From Candidatus Zhuqueibacterota bacterium (GTDB lineage: Bacteria > Zhuqueibacterota > Zhuqueibacteria > Zhuqueibacterales > Geothermadaptataceae), in assembly GCA_015485525.1 (NCBI GenBank), contig WFTM01000226.1, positions 1-38,124 of the forward strand: a stretch of 38,124 bases of DNA, given 5' to 3'. The number at the start of each line of letters is the position of its first letter. Position 1 is the stretch's first letter. Shown piece after piece: positions 30,526 through 38,124 of the stretch. Below the pieces are notes generated by a model. That model ran no database searches and was not told the DNA's origin. It saw only the letters and a program-made list of their open reading frames with translations. The translations under genes were made by a program, and so were the position numbers.

Positions 30526-32079
30526 ATGAAACAGGCCACAGCAGATTTGCTGGTCAAGAACAAGAGCGTTATTCTGCAAAAATGGGTAGAATCAATCCGG
30601 GAGAATAACGCCGTCCGGGCGACGATTCCATCGGCGTCCCTGGCCCAGGTCGTTGAGGAGCTCTATCTGTATGTGCTGGAATCGTTCCGGCAGGAGAAAA
30701 ACGCAAGCAAGCGCTTTGATCGGGTTCTGACTTTGGTGCAGAAGCCGGTGTTGCCGGAGACCCGCTTCGGCTTGCAGGTGTTGCTCAATCATGGCAAGAG
30801 AAAAATGTTTGACCTGCTGGAGCAGGCGCTGCCGGCAGGTGGTGATCTGGCCCGTGTCTTTCGCGCCATCGATGCCTGCTTTGATGATATCTCGCTGCAC
30901 GTGGTCTCGGAATGTGAAAAAAGCCAGGTCACCGAGGACGATGGCACTGCTCACGCCGGTGAAGACGAGCTGACGCCGCACTCCCGTCTGAACTTGTTTT
31001 ACAGCGCTTTTCTGAACAGCACAGATGCGATCATCATCACCAACCTGCATGGGAAAATAACAGAAGCGAATACCGCGTTTCTGGAGTTGTTCGGCTACAG
31101 CCATGACGAAGTCATTGGGCGCACGACCAGCTTTTTGCGATCGTCACGTACCAGCGACGAGCTTTACCGCCAGATGTGGACGTCACTCGAGGAAAAAGGC
31201 GAGTGGAAGGGAGAAATCTACAACCGCACGAAGCACGGTGAGGAGATCCCGGTATGGTTATCGATTACCTCTGTTTATGAAGACGACAAGCGGGTTGGCT
31301 ATATGGGCTTTGAGATCGACATGCGCCCGCAGAAAAAATTGGAAAAACGCATTTTACAGAGCGAAAGGCTGGCTGTGATCGGCAAGATGGCAGCAAAAGT
31401 TGCCCATGAAATCCGCAACCCCCTTTCTTCTATCAGTTTGAATACAGAACTTCTGGAGGACGAAATCCGAACCGAGTTTGGCGGTCTGCCGGAAGAGGCT
31501 GAGACGCTGCTGAAAACGATCATCGGTGAAGTGGATCGGGTGGCGAATCTTTCGGAAGAGTATCTGCAGTTTTCACGCCTGCCCGAGGCAGAAATCACCC
31601 TGTGCCATATAGATGACCTGGTGCGCGATGTGGTAGAATTCATCGAGCCAGAAGCCAATACTGTCGGTATCCAGATCATCACGAAAATACAGGATGATAT
31701 TCCTCCTTTTCCTTTTGATTATCAGCAAATCCGCCGTGTGTTGCTCAATCTGTACCGCAATGCCATCGAAGCGATGAAAAATGGCGGGCTGATCCGCACA
31801 GAAGTGAACCTGCTCGGTGACGATGTGGAAATCCGTATCGCTGATACCGGGGATGGAATACCTGATGAGTATGGTAAGAAGATTTTTGATCCCTTTTTCA
31901 CCACTAAAGACCTTGGTACAGGCCTTGGCCTGGCTATCACCAAACAGATTATCACCGAACATGGTGGTAAAATATCTTATGAGAGTCGGCTCAAAAACGG
32001 GACGACTTTTATCATCCGTTTACCTTTGAATGCCTCGGAAGAAGGCCAGGAAACCCGGGAGAACCAGAGTGTCAGATAA
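30526..32079 (+). CDS. PAS-domain sensor histidine kinase (NtrB-like)
   Basis: A 517-residue cytoplasmic protein with no membrane helix. Residues 1-125 are helical and look like an RsbRD-type N-terminal domain ([20 protein letters not shown]). A PAS domain spans about 160-280 ([48 protein letters not shown]). The kinase core has the phosphoacceptor His294 in [12 protein letters not shown] box [25 protein letters not shown] and GTGLGLAI. The lack of membrane segments suggests it senses an internal signal, perhaps redox or a small ligand via PAS. It overlaps the response regulator by 11 bases, so they form a two-component pair. The stimulus and targets are unknown; proximity to the oxidase operon makes oxygen or redox a guess only. 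Confidence 0.92.
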
Positions 32080-33460
32080 CAGCCAATATACCATCCTCGT
32101 CGTCGATGATGAAAAGAGTGTGCGCGAGTCAATCGGCAGGGTTTTAAAGAAAGAGGGCTACTCCGTCAGCCTGACGTCCAACGGCCACGAAGCTCTCGAT
32201 ATACTCGAGAAAAATCATATTTCTGTAGTCATGACGGATCTGCGCATGCCTGAGATGAGTGGTATCGAATTGCTCGAACATGCGAAGAGGGAATTTCAGG
32301 ACATCGAGGTGATCCTGATCACCGGGCACGGTACTATAGAAAAGGCTGTTGAGGCCATGAAGTTGGGTGCCTATGACTTCATCACCAAGCCATTCAAGCG
32401 TGCTGAAATTCTCAGCTCAGTGCGGCGGGCTATTGAGAAACATACACTGGCTTCGGAAAACAAATTTTTGCGCGAGCAACTGGAAAAGACCAATGAATCG
32501 CGTCTGGTTTTTATCGGCGAAAGCCCGCAGGTTCAGAATGTTATCAAGCTGGTTGATAAAGTTGCACCGCTGCCCTCAACCGTGCTGATCACCGGCGAGA
32601 GCGGCACAGGTAAGGAGATCATCGCACGCATGATCCACAACAAGAGCCCGCGCGCCAATCGCCGTTTCGTTGCTGTCAACTGTGGCGCCATATCGGAAAA
32701 TATCATCGAAAGCGAGCTGTTCGGGCATGTGAAAGGGTCCTTTACCGGCGCGACACGCGACAAGGATGGACTGTTCAAAATCGCATCCGGAGGCACGCTT
32801 TTCCTCGATGAAATCAGTACCCTGCCGTTGAATATGCAGGTAAAGCTGTTGCGAGCCCTGCAGGAACAGGAAATTCGCCCTGTCGGCTCTACACGTTCTA
32901 TCTCCGTTGATGTTCGCATCCTCGCAGCCAGTAACAGGAATTTACAGGATGAGATGGAAGCCGGAAATTTCCGCGAGGACCTGTATTATCGTTTGAATGT
33001 CGTTGCCCTCAATATCCCCCCCCTGCGCGAACGCCGCGATGACATTCCCCACCTGATCAAGCATTTCATCGCAAAGTTCAACCACGAGCTGAACAAATCT
33101 GTTACCGGAGCCAGCCCCGAGACGATACAGATGCTGATGAACTATTCCTGGAAAGGCAACGTCCGTGAGCTGGAAAATGCCATCGAACACGCGATGATTC
33201 TGTGTGATACCGAAGAGCTGCGTCCGGAGAATCTGCCACACCATTTTTTTGCAACCAAAGTCAGTCAGTTGACTCACCAGCAGGGTCTGAAAGAATCGGT
33301 CATGGAGTTCGAACGCTTGCAGATCACCAACACCCTGGCGCGTGTGGATGGCGATAAAAAAGCTGCAGCGGAGTTGCTCGGTCTCAGTCTTTCTTCCCTG
33401 TATAGGAAAATGTCTGAGTTGCAGCTGGATGTCAAAGAATACGGTCACAAGGATTCTTGA
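32069..33460 (+). CDS. NtrC-family sigma-54-dependent response regulator
   Basis: A 463-residue protein from GTG 32069 (GGGAG eight bases upstream; an upstream ATG at 32030 has none). Receiver domain, residues 6-120: DDE, phosphoacceptor Asp57 (MTDLRMPEMSG), ITGHG, and TKPF. AAA+ domain, about 140-380: Walker A GESGTGKE (176-183), sigma-54 contact loop GSFTGA (223-228; the consensus is GAFTGA, and Ser is a common variant), FLDEIS Walker B, and RxDLYYRLN. C-terminal Fis-type HTH, about 415-455 (KKAAAELLGLSLSSLYRKM). On phosphorylation by the overlapping kinase it should drive sigma-54 promoters. A candidate promoter lies 165 bp downstream of its stop. Confidence 0.95.
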   Translation: MSDNSQYTILVVDDEKSVRESIGRVLKKEGYSVSLTSNGHEALDILEKNHISVVMTDLRMPEMSGIELLEHAKREFQDIEVILITGHGTIEKAVEAMKLGAYDFITKPFKRAEILSSVRRAIEKHTLASENKFLREQLEKTNESRLVFIGESPQVQNVIKLVDKVAPLPSTVLITGESGTGKEIIARMIHNKSPRANRRFVAVNCGAISENIIESELFGHVKGSFTGATRDKDGLFKIASGGTLFLDEISTLPLNMQVKLLRALQEQEIRPVGSTRSISVDVRILAASNRNLQDEMEAGNFREDLYYRLNVVALNIPPLRERRDDIPHLIKHFIAKFNHELNKSVTGASPETIQMLMNYSWKGNVRELENAIEHAMILCDTEELRPENLPHHFFATKVSQLTHQQGLKESVMEFERLQITNTLARVDGDKKAAAELLGLSLSSLYRKMSELQLDVKEYGHKDS

Positions 33461-33626
33461 AAGTGAGAATCACCTGCTGGCCATTTGCCATTATTGGGAA
33501 AGGCTATTAACAATATTTCTAATAACTTGCAGGCATGTTACCGTGCTATAATTTTTTCTTATGGTGGTAGGCAGCTTTGTTTATCGGCGCGGGCGCTTTT
33601 ATTCCATTTGCTCAATCTTGGGGCAG

Positions 33627-33642
33627 TGGCACTATAATTGTA
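33627..33642 (+). promoter_or_regulatory. Candidate sigma-54 promoter (TGGCAC-N5-TTGTA)
   Basis: TGGCAC at 33627-33632, five bases, then TTGTA at 33638-33642; the consensus is TGGCAC-N5-TTGCA. The spacing is exact and only the -12 C is changed. It lies between the NtrC-type regulator and the stand-alone receiver gene, 344 bp before the latter. Confidence 0.5.
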
Positions 33643-33700
33643 TTAATTGCCACAATTCTTATTTCTCGTACACAATAATTTTGACGATAGATGTGATATG

Positions 33701-33755
33701 AGTTACCCCGATCTATTCGAAATGTACGTACCGGCCAGGGTAAATCGGGATAACT
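33701..33755. repeat. Palindromic element AGTTACCCCGAT / ATCGGGATAACT
   Basis: Left arm 33701-33712, right arm 33744-33755, with one mismatch, 31-nt loop. Same family as 8353-8392. It lies about 60 bp after the sigma-54 promoter candidate and could terminate or stabilise a short RNA. Confidence 0.6.
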
Positions 33756-33985
33756 GAACCTTCCTTCCGGAGTGTGTGTTACACCAGGAGTTGTATCCCG
33801 CATGGTGCACAAAAAGAATGTTTCGCGCGGGATGGCTGAAAAATTTTGCTCGACGAGATATTTCATAGTAATGGTCTCATAAAATGTGGCTTACGGCAAA
33901 TTTTTTCGGGTTCGTGAATTTTTCAGGCAAGAACGTGTGTTATGAAGAAGAGTCTCCGGATTAACGAGCTTTTCAGGTTAAGGCC

Positions 33986-34438
33986 ATGGTTATGCATACA
34001 GGAGTAAAAACACGAGAGCCTTATGACGATGGATTACCACCCCAGGGATATGAAGCAAAGAGCATGAACGCCAAATCGGAGCACAAGCGTATCCTCATCA
34101 TCGGAGACGAGTCTGTTTTTCGCCGCACGCTGTTCAAAACCCTTGCAAAAGACGGCTACAATGTCTTTGCATCAGTCAACATCGCTGAAGCCGCCGAATT
34201 CCTCGATTCATTGGACTTTTCACTGATTCTGGTCGATATCGCTGATATCTACAACGGTGGTCTGGATCGGCTGCGGCATATCATGGATATGGCGAAGCAG
34301 GCTAAAGTGATCGTTTTGATTCCTTTCACCAACCAGAAAGCGAAGAAAACCATCGATACTCTCGGGGCGGTGACCAGCCTGGTCAAACCGATCCGCAAAA
34401 AAGTTCTGCTGCGTACCGTCGCCCGCGTTCTGCAATAG
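33986..34438 (+). CDS. Stand-alone response-regulator receiver protein
   Basis: A 150-residue protein with a single receiver domain at about 35-150. The start of the fold is RILIIGDESVFRRTLFKTL with the acidic pair Asp-Glu, the phosphoacceptor candidate is Asp84 in LILVDIAD, and the conserved Lys134 is in LVKPIRK. The Thr/Ser position after strand 4 is hydrophobic (VLIPF), which is unusual, so signalling by the usual Thr-Tyr switch may be changed. There is no output domain. The first 26 residues (TREPYDDGLPPQGYEAKS) are polar; ATG at 34064 (MNAKSEHKR) is an alternative start, but AAGG precedes the first ATG more closely. It may be an intermediate or phosphate sink for the NtrB/NtrC-like pair nearby. 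Confidence 0.75.
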   Translation: MVMHTGVKTREPYDDGLPPQGYEAKSMNAKSEHKRILIIGDESVFRRTLFKTLAKDGYNVFASVNIAEAAEFLDSLDFSLILVDIADIYNGGLDRLRHIMDMAKQAKVIVLIPFTNQKAKKTIDTLGAVTSLVKPIRKKVLLRTVARVLQ

Positions 34439-34726: not shown

Positions 34727-37177
34727 ATGAAAAAGCGAAGAAAAACCCGTGAAGTTCTGAAGGCTTTGTTTGCACCCCGTGGTATTGCTGTAATCGGCAG
34801 CTCATGGCAGTCGCCGTTATTTTTGCAAGTCCTCAATAATCTCGCCGCCTCCAGGGGGAAATCCCGGGTCTGGCCTGTCATTCTCGGGCCTGAACGGCAG
34901 ATGCCGCCGGAAATTTTTGCTAACGAAATCGATCTCGCGATCCTCGTGATACCCGTTTCAGAAACCCTGCCTGTGCTGCGGAGCTGTGATGCGGCAGGTG
35001 TCGCAGCAGCCCTTCTCATCCAGAGCCCGGAAGGAACAAGCCAGCAACGTGCTGATGCATACACCGCGTTGCGTGAGGAGCTCACAGACCTGTCTATCCG
35101 CGTTCTTGGTCCCAACAGCGCTGGTCTCATGCTACCCGGCGAAAAATTCAACGCCAGCGTGATCCCCGGCACGGCCCTGACCGGGTCTGTCGCGTTTCTC
35201 AGCCAGAGCGGTGCTCTGTGCAATGCTATTCTCGACTGGAGCCTGTGCGAGCAGATCGGCTTCAGCGCCTTTGTCTCTGTCGGTGCAATGGTTGATATCA
35301 GTTGGGGCGAGCTGCTCACCTGGCTGGGGGATCATGCGGCAACCCGCAGCATCATCATTTATATGGAATCCATCGGAGAAGCGCGCGCTTTTCTGTCGGC
35401 TGCCCGCGAAACGACCTTGAGCAAACCGGTGATCGTGATCAAAGCAGGCAGGACGGAAACAGCAGCCCGTGCCGTGGCCGCACATTCTTTTCATCCGGCC
35501 GGAGACGACGCTGTGCTCGAGGCGGCGTTCAGAAGAATCGGGGTGTTATGGGTCGAGAGTATCGCCGAGCTGTTTTATATGGCCGAAGTGCTCTCCCGGC
35601 AGCCGCTGCCCTCGGGCAACCGGCTGATGATCGTGAGTAATTCCGGCAGTGCGGGTGTGTTGGCTGCAGACTCGCTCACGACCAGAGGCGGTGCGCCCGG
35701 TCATGTGCCGGAAGGAATTGCCGCCGAGCTGCGCGATCGCGTTCTGGTCACCGGTTTCGTCGATATCGGTGAAGACGCCGATGCAGAGCGCTATTCTGAA
35801 GTGCTGGGTGTGCTCCAGGCAGATGCAGATACTGACGGCACTCTGGTTGTTTATGCGCCGACCATTTTTACCCCGGCAGAAGAGGTTGCAGGTGAAGTTA
35901 TCCGCTTTGCACATTCGCAGCAGAAACCGGTGCTGGCAAGCTGGATCGGAGGCAACAGCGTACAGAAGGGCACGGCCATGCTCGAGCGCGCCGGAATCCC
36001 GACGTTTCCCTATCCGGATACGGCCGCGAAAATTTTCAACTATATGTGGCGTTATGCCTATAATTTGCGTGCCCTGTACGAAACCCCTGCTCTGGTTGAT
36101 TCAGAGGAAAAAGCCGGCGAGCGACGTGCATGTGCAGATGAACTGCTGCAGAAAGAGCTCGAACTCGGGAGGGAAGAGCTGAGTGCCGATGCTGCTGCCC
36201 GGCTTCTGGCCGCCTATGGCCTGGATGTATCAGATGAAAAGCCCGCAGGCGGTCAGAGTTATCCCTGCGCCATGGGGTCTTTCGTGGATGCCGAGTTTGG
36301 GCCGGTGCTGTATTTCAGTGCCACAGCACAGGGCCCGGTACCGGCAAGCGACAGAACTCTGGCACTTCCTCCCCTGAACACAACCCTGGCCCGGCGTATG
36401 TTGGAACAGACACGGTTTTATCAGCAGATGCAGGCAGAGGGCAGGGTTGATCTGAATAAACTCGAGCAGGCTCTGGTGGGATTCAGCAGGATGCTGGTCG
36501 AATTGCCGAGAATTCACGAAGTCAGGCTCGATCCTCTGTTTCTGCACATCGACGAAAGCGGAGATGCACGGCCTCTGGTCGCAGCCTGCCGGATTCGTCT
36601 GTTTGGCAAAGAAGTCCCGGACGCCCGCTTGCCACGCCCGGCCATCCGTCCCTATCCGATTCAGTACGTCGGCGAGTGGCACCTGCGGGATGGCACACCT
36701 GTGCTCATCCGTCCGATTCGCCCCGAAGACGAACCTAAGTTCGTCGCTTTTCATAAGCACCTCTCGGACCAGAGCGTTTATTTTCGCTACTTCCACACGA
36801 TTCAGCTCGACCAGCGCATTGCGCACGAGCGCCTGAGCCGAATCTGTTTTGTCGATTATGACCGGGAGATGGCGTTAGTGGTTGAAATTGCCACCGCCGA
36901 TCCCCGGGAAATTATCGCTGTCGGCAGGTTGATCCGCGCCCACGGCGATGATGAAGCCGAGTTTGCCATCCTGGTGGCTGATAAATACCAGCGTTCCGGG
37001 ATCGGAACCGAACTGCTGCGCCGTCTGGTTGCCATCGGTGCCCGGGAAGGCCTGGCACGGATTACAGCGAAAATTCTGCCGGAAAACAGCGGCATGCTGC
37101 AGGTTTGCCGTAAGATCGGTTTTGATGTCCGCTTTAATGCCGATGAGGAAGTGTATGATGCCGTGATTGCGTTATGA
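34727..37177 (+). CDS. Pat-like acyl-CoA-synthetase/GNAT fusion with truncated ATP-grasp domain
   Basis: An 816-residue protein from ATG 34727 (GGGAGG just upstream; the TTG at 34682 is not needed). Layout: CoA-binding domain (about 10-120, FAPRGIAVIGSS), succinyl-CoA-synthetase-like domains (about 130-430; LGPNSAGLMLP, FLSQSGALCNAI, VIVIKAGRTETAARAVAAHSF with the His kept but the following TGALAG lost), an ATP-grasp remnant (about 485-620), and a GNAT domain (about 655-816, VLIRPIRPEDEPKF, VADKYQRSGIGTELL). The full set is the layout of Pat/PatZ protein lysine acetyltransferases, which acetylate metabolic enzymes. In the ATP-grasp part, only about 24 residues lie between AAYGLDV and FGPVLYF, where relatives have about 85-110; the ATP-binding strands and glycine loop are missing. 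Synthetase activity is therefore unlikely; the GNAT part looks intact. Confidence 0.88.
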   Translation: MKKRRKTREVLKALFAPRGIAVIGSSWQSPLFLQVLNNLAASRGKSRVWPVILGPERQMPPEIFANEIDLAILVIPVSETLPVLRSCDAAGVAAALLIQSPEGTSQQRADAYTALREELTDLSIRVLGPNSAGLMLPGEKFNASVIPGTALTGSVAFLSQSGALCNAILDWSLCEQIGFSAFVSVGAMVDISWGELLTWLGDHAATRSIIIYMESIGEARAFLSAARETTLSKPVIVIKAGRTETAARAVAAHSFHPAGDDAVLEAAFRRIGVLWVESIAELFYMAEVLSRQPLPSGNRLMIVSNSGSAGVLAADSLTTRGGAPGHVPEGIAAELRDRVLVTGFVDIGEDADAERYSEVLGVLQADADTDGTLVVYAPTIFTPAEEVAGEVIRFAHSQQKPVLASWIGGNSVQKGTAMLERAGIPTFPYPDTAAKIFNYMWRYAYNLRALYETPALVDSEEKAGERRACADELLQKELELGREELSADAAARLLAAYGLDVSDEKPAGGQSYPCAMGSFVDAEFGPVLYFSATAQGPVPASDRTLALPPLNTTLARRMLEQTRFYQQMQAEGRVDLNKLEQALVGFSRMLVELPRIHEVRLDPLFLHIDESGDARPLVAACRIRLFGKEVPDARLPRPAIRPYPIQYVGEWHLRDGTPVLIRPIRPEDEPKFVAFHKHLSDQSVYFRYFHTIQLDQRIAHERLSRICFVDYDREMALVVEIATADPREIIAVGRLIRAHGDDEAEFAILVADKYQRSGIGTELLRRLVAIGAREGLARITAKILPENSGMLQVCRKIGFDVRFNADEEVYDAVIAL

Positions 37178-37345: not shown

Positions 37346-37816
37346 ATGAAAAAGATGACAGCACATGACATCATGAACAAAAACATCATCGTCGTGCCAC
37401 AGAACTGGACGATTGCCGAACTGGCCAGGTTCTTTCTGGAAAAAGCGATCACCGGCGCACCAGTTGCAGACGGGGACGGGAAACTGGTCGGCGTGGTTTC
37501 TCTGATGGATATTGCCCGCTATGAAAGCTACAGCGCGCGCAAGGCAAAGTCAGAAAAAACACACCATTATTATCTCCATGGCTGGGAAGATGCCATGGAC
37601 AGCGACGACATGCGCGCGTTCCACGTCGAAGACTATCCTGATACGACCGTTGAACAGATCATGACGCCGATGATTTTCAAAGTCCCGGCAGAAATGGCCA
37701 TCCCTGATGTCGCCAGAATGATGGTGATGGGGCGCATTCATCGCGTTCTTGTCGTCGATGAGGATAAGCCGGTGGGCATCATTACCACGATGGATTTGCT
37801 CAAGCTGCTGTATTGA
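37346..37816 (+). CDS. Two-CBS-domain protein
   Basis: A 156-residue protein of two CBS domains (about 4-58 and 93-156): TAHDIMNKNIIVVPQNWTI, ITGAPVADGDGKLVGVVSLMDIA, then VEQIMTPMIFKVPAEMAI and IHRVLVVDEDKPVGIITTMDLLKLL. CBS pairs bind AMP, ATP or SAM and regulate partners or act alone as sensors. Between the domains is a 35-residue, His- and acid-rich insert (SEKTHHYYLHGWEDAMDSDD). GGGAG and GTGAG lie before the ATG at 37346; an upstream GTG reading frame has no support. It follows the Pat-like gene by 168 bp on the same strand; a link through adenylate energy sensing is possible but not shown. Confidence 0.9.
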   Translation: MKKMTAHDIMNKNIIVVPQNWTIAELARFFLEKAITGAPVADGDGKLVGVVSLMDIARYESYSARKAKSEKTHHYYLHGWEDAMDSDDMRAFHVEDYPDTTVEQIMTPMIFKVPAEMAIPDVARMMVMGRIHRVLVVDEDKPVGIITTMDLLKLLY

Positions 37817-37870: not shown

Positions 37871-38124
37871 GTATCCGTCCAGTGCCCCCCACCTTTCTTC
37901 AGTATCTCCCCTTCACGCTGGCTCGAATGCAGCCATGAGTCAGGTACTGCTACGGAAGAGAAGTAGCCGAAGTGGCAACACTTCGGGCGCCCGGGAGGCC
38001 GGAACTCTTGCGAGTTCCGCTACAGGATGCAAAGTGTTTGCTCGAGCACGGTATCCGTTCGGTTACCCCCGCCTTTCTTCAGTTTCTCCCCTTCACGCTG
38101 GCTCGAATGCAGCCATGAGTCAGG
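37871..38124. repeat. Direct repeat of period 180 bp with hairpins, running off the window
   Basis: The 74-bp segment 37871-37944 recurs at 38051-38124 with few changes, the shift being exactly 180; it includes CTTCACGCTGGCTCGAATGC and GCAGCCATGAGTCAGG. The second copy ends at the window edge, so further units may follow. Between copies lies a double hairpin (37949-38023). No coding frame seen. Confidence 0.75.
37963..38023. repeat. REP-like double hairpin closed by GTAGC/GCTAC
   Basis: First hairpin CCGAAGTG-GCAA-CACTTCGG (37967-37986, perfect 8-bp stem, GNRA-type loop). Second hairpin GGAACTC-TTGC-GAGTTCC (38001-38018, perfect 7-bp stem). The pair is bracketed by GTAGC (37963-37967) and GCTAC (38019-38023). 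Similar twin palindromes are common REP-type intergenic repeats. Confidence 0.65.

Follow-up and report, generated by a model that had tools for sequence, protein, structure and literature searches.

What the dead synthetase half contributes to PatZ-type acetyltransferases is the question raised by a gene for a Pat-like protein in the window, that is, the whole stretch of 38,124 nucleotides that was analysed. Type I lysine acetyltransferases (type I KATs) are regarded as ligase-dead enzymes with a regulatory N-terminal region (PMC8556138), a region held to be inactive, to bind acetyl-CoA and to be required for activity (PMC8556138; PMC6456759). The gene opens with an ATG at 34727 and its frame stays open for 816 codons (coding part to 37174). 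The features of the locus are as follows:

30526..34438 (+): PAS histidine kinase, NtrC-type regulator and single-domain receiver, upstream of the acetyltransferase gene (Pfam; synteny)
34727..37177 (+): lid-less Pat-like protein of 816 aa and 89 kDa, with ACD subdomains 1-2-5-4, lacking 3, followed by a GNAT domain (ORF, Pfam and NCBIfam domains, mass)
34760..35176 (+): subdomain 1, CoA-binding Rossmann-like domain, strongly diverged (CoA_binding_2; position retention)
35177..35596 (+): subdomain 2, Succ_CoA_lig domain (Pfam, 163.8 bits, residues 153-289; alignment)
35618..36061 (+): subdomain 5, ligase-CoA domain (PF19045, Ligase_CoA_2, 20.5 bits, just under the cut-off; alignment)
36170..36601 (+): subdomain 4, ATP-grasp remnant (ATP-grasp_5 match to profile positions 110-209 of 221 only; FGxGG and metal-site Asn altered)
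36227..36262 (+): junction at the missing lid, subdomain 3, about 75 aa (alignments, residue counts, identical junction in a congener)
36644..37174 (+): GNAT acetyltransferase domain, intact (Acetyltransf_3 and Acetyltransf_1, Pfam; 40/40 conserved positions)
37346..37816 (+): CBS-domain protein, directly downstream (Pfam CBS, two stretches)

A preliminary description, whose coordinates proved right, had proposed that this enzyme lost the ATP-binding half of its ATP-grasp domain, leaving about 24 residues between the AAYGL helix and the FGPV strand where relatives have about 85-110. The finding was confirmed, and the estimate was close: this spacing is 24 residues in the window protein (about 36227-36298) versus 93-127 (median 98) in 57 lid-bearing, GNAT-fused relatives, which come from a family survey seeded with the window protein, so that rarity figures are rough. 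Loss of ATP binding is supported; what is gone, however, is not an arbitrary half but a discrete inserted module, since the excised stretch corresponds to the whole of subdomain 3, which in ADP-forming acyl-CoA synthetases forms the lid of the ATP-grasp fold. Nmar_0206, a single-chain synthetase, has its lid (residues 503-577) inserted within subdomain 4; there, His535 of the lid accepts phosphate from ATP and hands it on to the swinging-loop His256 (PMC11494057). When a lid-bearing relative was aligned to Nmar_0206, His535 matched the His of HKTDVGG (the HKTD motif), and the lid edges fell just past the GIPxP turn and just ahead of VQPM, which identifies the missing piece as the lid as a module. 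Both the ATP lysine and the first phospho-histidine lie in this lid. Relocation of the ATP-binding residues elsewhere in the protein was rejected, as the sole ATP-grasp match is the C-terminal remnant, and no free-standing lid gene was found in the window's genome.

The remaining ligase active site is also altered. After FGPV, the FGxGG glycine loop is replaced by FSATAQG, as had been noticed before. The DRTLALPPLN segment is indeed kept, but the LDPLF segment, first read as kept too, is an altered active-site motif: it corresponds to INPL, with the Asn changed to Asp. We take this Asn to be the metal ligand, as established for ATP-grasp enzymes. The swinging-loop His still aligns, within a motif eroded from SHTG to AHSF, and the subdomain 5 motif TNAGGPGV reads SNSGSAGV. 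In contrast, the 57 lid-bearing relatives keep the lid Lys (57/57), the lid His (56/57), the loop His (56/57) and the metal-site Asn (57/57); the lid-less proteins have all lost both the lid residues and this Asn. Set against an ADP-forming synthetase, the window protein thus lacks one of the five subdomains, has lost one relay histidine with the lid and holds the other in an eroded motif, and carries Asp at the INPL position, where the second lid-less lineage described below carries Ser. With lid, metal-site Asn and FGxGG loop all absent, ATP would be unable to bind and to pass phosphate to the histidine relay by the known mechanism. By every sequence criterion, the ligase chemistry of the window protein is judged to be dead.

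The rest of the protein retains the architecture of its family. By sequence, the nearest solved protein is E. coli PatZ, with an alignment split at the missing piece (query residues 10-501 to PatZ 5-497; query residues 521-810 to PatZ 592-874). The AlphaFold2 model, which had been suggested as a check, showed a confident fold (pLDDT 85.3, pTM 0.84) with lower local confidence at the junction (68) and at the former glycine loop (54), and its best PDB match was liganded PatZ (9it0, TM 0.82). PatZ is therefore the closest PDB match by both sequence and fold. Structure prediction and PDB matching of the second lid-less lineage gave the same picture. The GNAT domain, reported as kept in the preliminary description, is conserved at all of the highly conserved positions; its acetyl-CoA P-loop, (R/Q)xxGxG/A, reads QRSGIG, and the equivalent of PatZ Glu809 is present within EAEFA. 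This Glu809 equivalent is absent in 17 of the 57 lid-bearing relatives, many of them from Chloroflexota.

These properties agree with a type I (class I-alpha) KAT, in which an NDP-forming acyl-CoA synthetase region precedes a C-terminal GNAT domain in a protein of more than 80 kDa: the window protein, at 816 aa and 89 kDa, has PatZ as best match over both halves, its ATP-grasp part being incomplete; it carries the P-loop and the Glu809 equivalent; and its ligase half appears inactive, as read from sequence alone. The window protein is most likely a PatZ-like lysine acetyltransferase of type I, with a working part of the GNAT kind and a catalytically dead ligase half that has been retained as a scaffold, structural or allosteric. 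The four remaining ligase subdomains would serve in folding, in oligomerisation and as an allosteric scaffold positioning the GNAT domain. From what is known of the family, the protein may acetylate lysines of Acs-like targets on this non-catalytic scaffold. A candidate target is encoded in the window's genome, where a clear Acs bears the acetylation motif PKTRSGK; AcuC-type deacetylases are encoded there as well. No sirtuin (SIR2) was found in the whole genomes of the window's organism and its congener (G000 and G001), and one is present in 12/15 genomes of the order.

All domains of the window protein are under purifying selection. Comparison with the congener HyVt-473 (L005/L034; 94% identity) gave an overall dN/dS of 0.18, and values of 0.09 for subdomain 1, 0.14 for subdomain 2, 0.32 for subdomain 5, 0.25 for the ATP-grasp remnant and 0.12 for GNAT; the per-domain values rest on small counts (5-28 changes) and are read only as being all well below 1. 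The corresponding ATP-grasp region in a lid-bearing pair also gave 0.25. Retention was scored at positions at least 90% conserved among the lid-bearing relatives: GNAT keeps 40/40, subdomain 2 keeps 82%, subdomain 5 keeps 75% and subdomain 1 keeps 49%, while the ATP-grasp remnant, with the lid left out of the count, keeps 55%. The earlier suggestion of an acetyltransferase on a vestigial scaffold was half right: the ligase is dead as far as its sequence tells and survival of the acetyltransferase is supported, but the scaffold is still under purifying selection (dN/dS 0.09-0.32) and has a confidently predicted fold.

A second lid-less lineage was found in two KSB1-type genomes from another family of the same order (G010, KSB1 J3, L035; and G011, L006), with 23 residues remaining at the lid position, the loop His changed to Gln and the metal-site Asn to Ser. 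In a tree built without the columns of the deletion, these proteins nest with those of the lid-bearing congeners G007 and G009 (support 100/100), and the window protein joins a lid-bearing relative of its own family (93/94) on a long branch. Forcing the lid-less proteins into one clade was rejected by the AU test (p=0.0004). The trees, unlike gene order, are open to long-branch effects. The G011 gene adjoins hydrogenase-maturation and 2-oxoacid:ferredoxin oxidoreductase genes, like the gene of lid-bearing G009, and the hydrogenase-maturation side of that neighbourhood is visible on the G010 contig; the histidine kinase, NtrC-type regulator and receiver upstream of the window gene also precede the lid-bearing orthologue in the same-family genomes G003 and G005. 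The tree, the AU test and the different conserved neighbourhoods together give good support to the independent loss of the same lid in two lineages.

The two lineages also differ in the CoA-binding domain. The CoA_binding_2 match of the window protein (20.2 bits) lies under the cut-off of 22.8, versus 81-82 bits in relatives, whereas the KSB1-type proteins reach 81 bits and retain 81-83% of the conserved positions of subdomain 1. The gap between 49% and 81-83% retention implies that the lineages differ in likely CoA binding: the KSB1-type proteins no longer use ATP but have probably retained CoA binding, and CoA binding by the N-terminal region is doubtful in the window lineage. With a CoA-binding domain so diverged, acetyl-CoA sensing of the kind known from Salmonella Pat may no longer operate, and the cooperative oligomerisation that acetyl-CoA binding by the N-terminal region drives in type I KATs may be absent. 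The nature of the excised module, its independent loss in a second lineage and this strong divergence go beyond the preliminary description.

Several other explanations were weighed against these data. An assembly deletion or a decaying pseudogene might be suspected, given that the window comes from a fragmented assembly of 493 contigs and that a same-family orthologue has an in-frame stop. Nevertheless, the congener has an identical junction, likewise in frame, and differs by a few nucleotides in the surrounding sequence, as would be seen if the deletion were common to close relatives, a check proposed at the outset; this identical junction at 94% identity excludes an assembly error. With 816 codons open, an overall dN/dS of 0.18 and a perfectly conserved GNAT domain, such an artefact is highly improbable. 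A single ancestral lid-less gene, inherited by or transferred between the two lineages, would account for the near-equal residual lengths (24 versus 23 residues) and for their occurrence within one order, but it is very unlikely in view of the nesting of the second lineage among lid-bearing congeners, the AU rejection of a single clade, and gene neighbourhoods that each lineage has in common with its own lid-bearing relatives. 

As for function, the ligase might still work with ATP binding supplied in trans, given that a separate ADP-forming synthetase with a lid, or the full ATP-grasp domain of one, is encoded in all four lid-less genomes, and that the window protein keeps the loop His. However, this protein has also lost the metal-site Asn, the FGxGG loop and the SHTG motif, and the lid is an insert within subdomain 4 with no free-standing version found in the genome, so we consider this reading barely credible. 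Less remote, though still improbable, is that the remodelled ligase cleft binds a different ligand, such as another acyl-CoA or a signal tied to the adjacent two-component or CBS genes, and confers new regulation. It would fit a CoA-binding domain that is heavily remodelled yet has a dN/dS of only 0.09 between congeners, and a CBS gene lying directly downstream only in the window's genus. Against it, nothing points to such a ligand, the CoA-binding domain has been retained in the second lid-less lineage, and the stretch examined at that lineage's locus showed no CBS neighbour. Neighbouring CBS and acetyltransferase genes are reminiscent of AcuB beside AcuA. As a general partner the CBS gene was rejected, as it occupies that position only in the window's genus; in same-family G003 an FHA-domain gene is found there. 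Further downstream, at the window end (37871-38124), a 74-nt repeat occurs twice with a spacing of 180 nt; when 111 nt of this region served as query, the genome gave 76 matches, some likewise about 180 nt apart, and the repeats belong to a dispersed family.

Returning to the dead ligase on a retained scaffold, its relatives suggest an order of events. The same-family lid-bearing genes (G003 and G005) both have Asn at the lid phospho-histidine and SS for GG, and in a planctomycete relative (L046, 4001-6748) the lid is present but the swinging-loop phospho-histidine is gone (NPLG for SHTG), by its sequence another, separate instance of a ligase inactivated through point change. From the same-family His-to-Asn change and this planctomycete case we infer that point inactivation came first and that excision of a then useless lid may have followed. 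The G005 orthologue (L119, 4880-7681, minus strand) contains one in-frame stop in the ligase-CoA domain and may be a decaying gene or carry a sequencing error. Redundancy with a separate synthetase was considered as the cause of decay and judged not decisive, since lid-bearing G007 and G009 have such a synthetase too and the two same-family genomes with broken lid motifs show none.

With E. coli PatZ (YfiQ, Pka) and Salmonella Pat, the window protein shares the ACD-like N-terminal region, the C-terminal GNAT domain and a broken ligase active site. Still, PatZ keeps its lid (with an HKSE motif), has lost the swinging-loop His and reads IHPL for INPL, whereas in the window protein the entire lid is missing and the Asn has become Asp; PatZ thus appears to have come to a similar ligase-dead state by point changes with the lid retained. 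The ADP-forming synthetases Nmar_0206 (8WZU) and Ca. Korarchaeum ACD1 (4XYL series) have subdomain 3 and no GNAT domain, the reverse of the window protein, in which subdomains 1, 2, 5 and 4 are ordered as in Nmar_0206. Type III and IV KATs likewise acetylate without a working ligase, but they have small sensor domains or none, whereas a large former ligase is kept here. The lid-bearing relatives from Chloroflexota, Acidobacteriota, Cyanobacteriota and other phyla, which NCBI names 'bifunctional acetate--CoA ligase family protein/GNAT family...', have the same domain order and the same GNAT, with 43-49% identity to the window protein; because their synthetase active site is nearly always complete, many (e.g. 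L089, L054 and L052) may, unlike PatZ, be working ligase-acetyltransferase fusions. 

A literature search, with most subscription journals beyond its reach, found no paper describing lid-less Pat proteins. The dead ligase half itself is already known for type I KATs, and what is new is the route, a clean loss of the lid that occurred twice. It is conceivable, as a tentative wider view, that in many phyla the type I acetyltransferases are intact fusions with a ligase and that lineages repeatedly become pure acetyltransferases by breakage of the histidine relay followed by clean excision of the lid, after which the leftover ligase fold could evolve into a scaffold under different regulation, with CBS or two-component signals as possible inputs in the present case. 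Relatives with complete sites offer a contrast through which one can test whether many proteins annotated as 'Pat' are working ligases. Two independent excisions of the lid, with the rest of the fold under selection, amount to a natural deletion experiment, which suggests that subdomains 1, 2, 5 and 4 are required for acetyltransferase function, with ATP and the lid dispensable.
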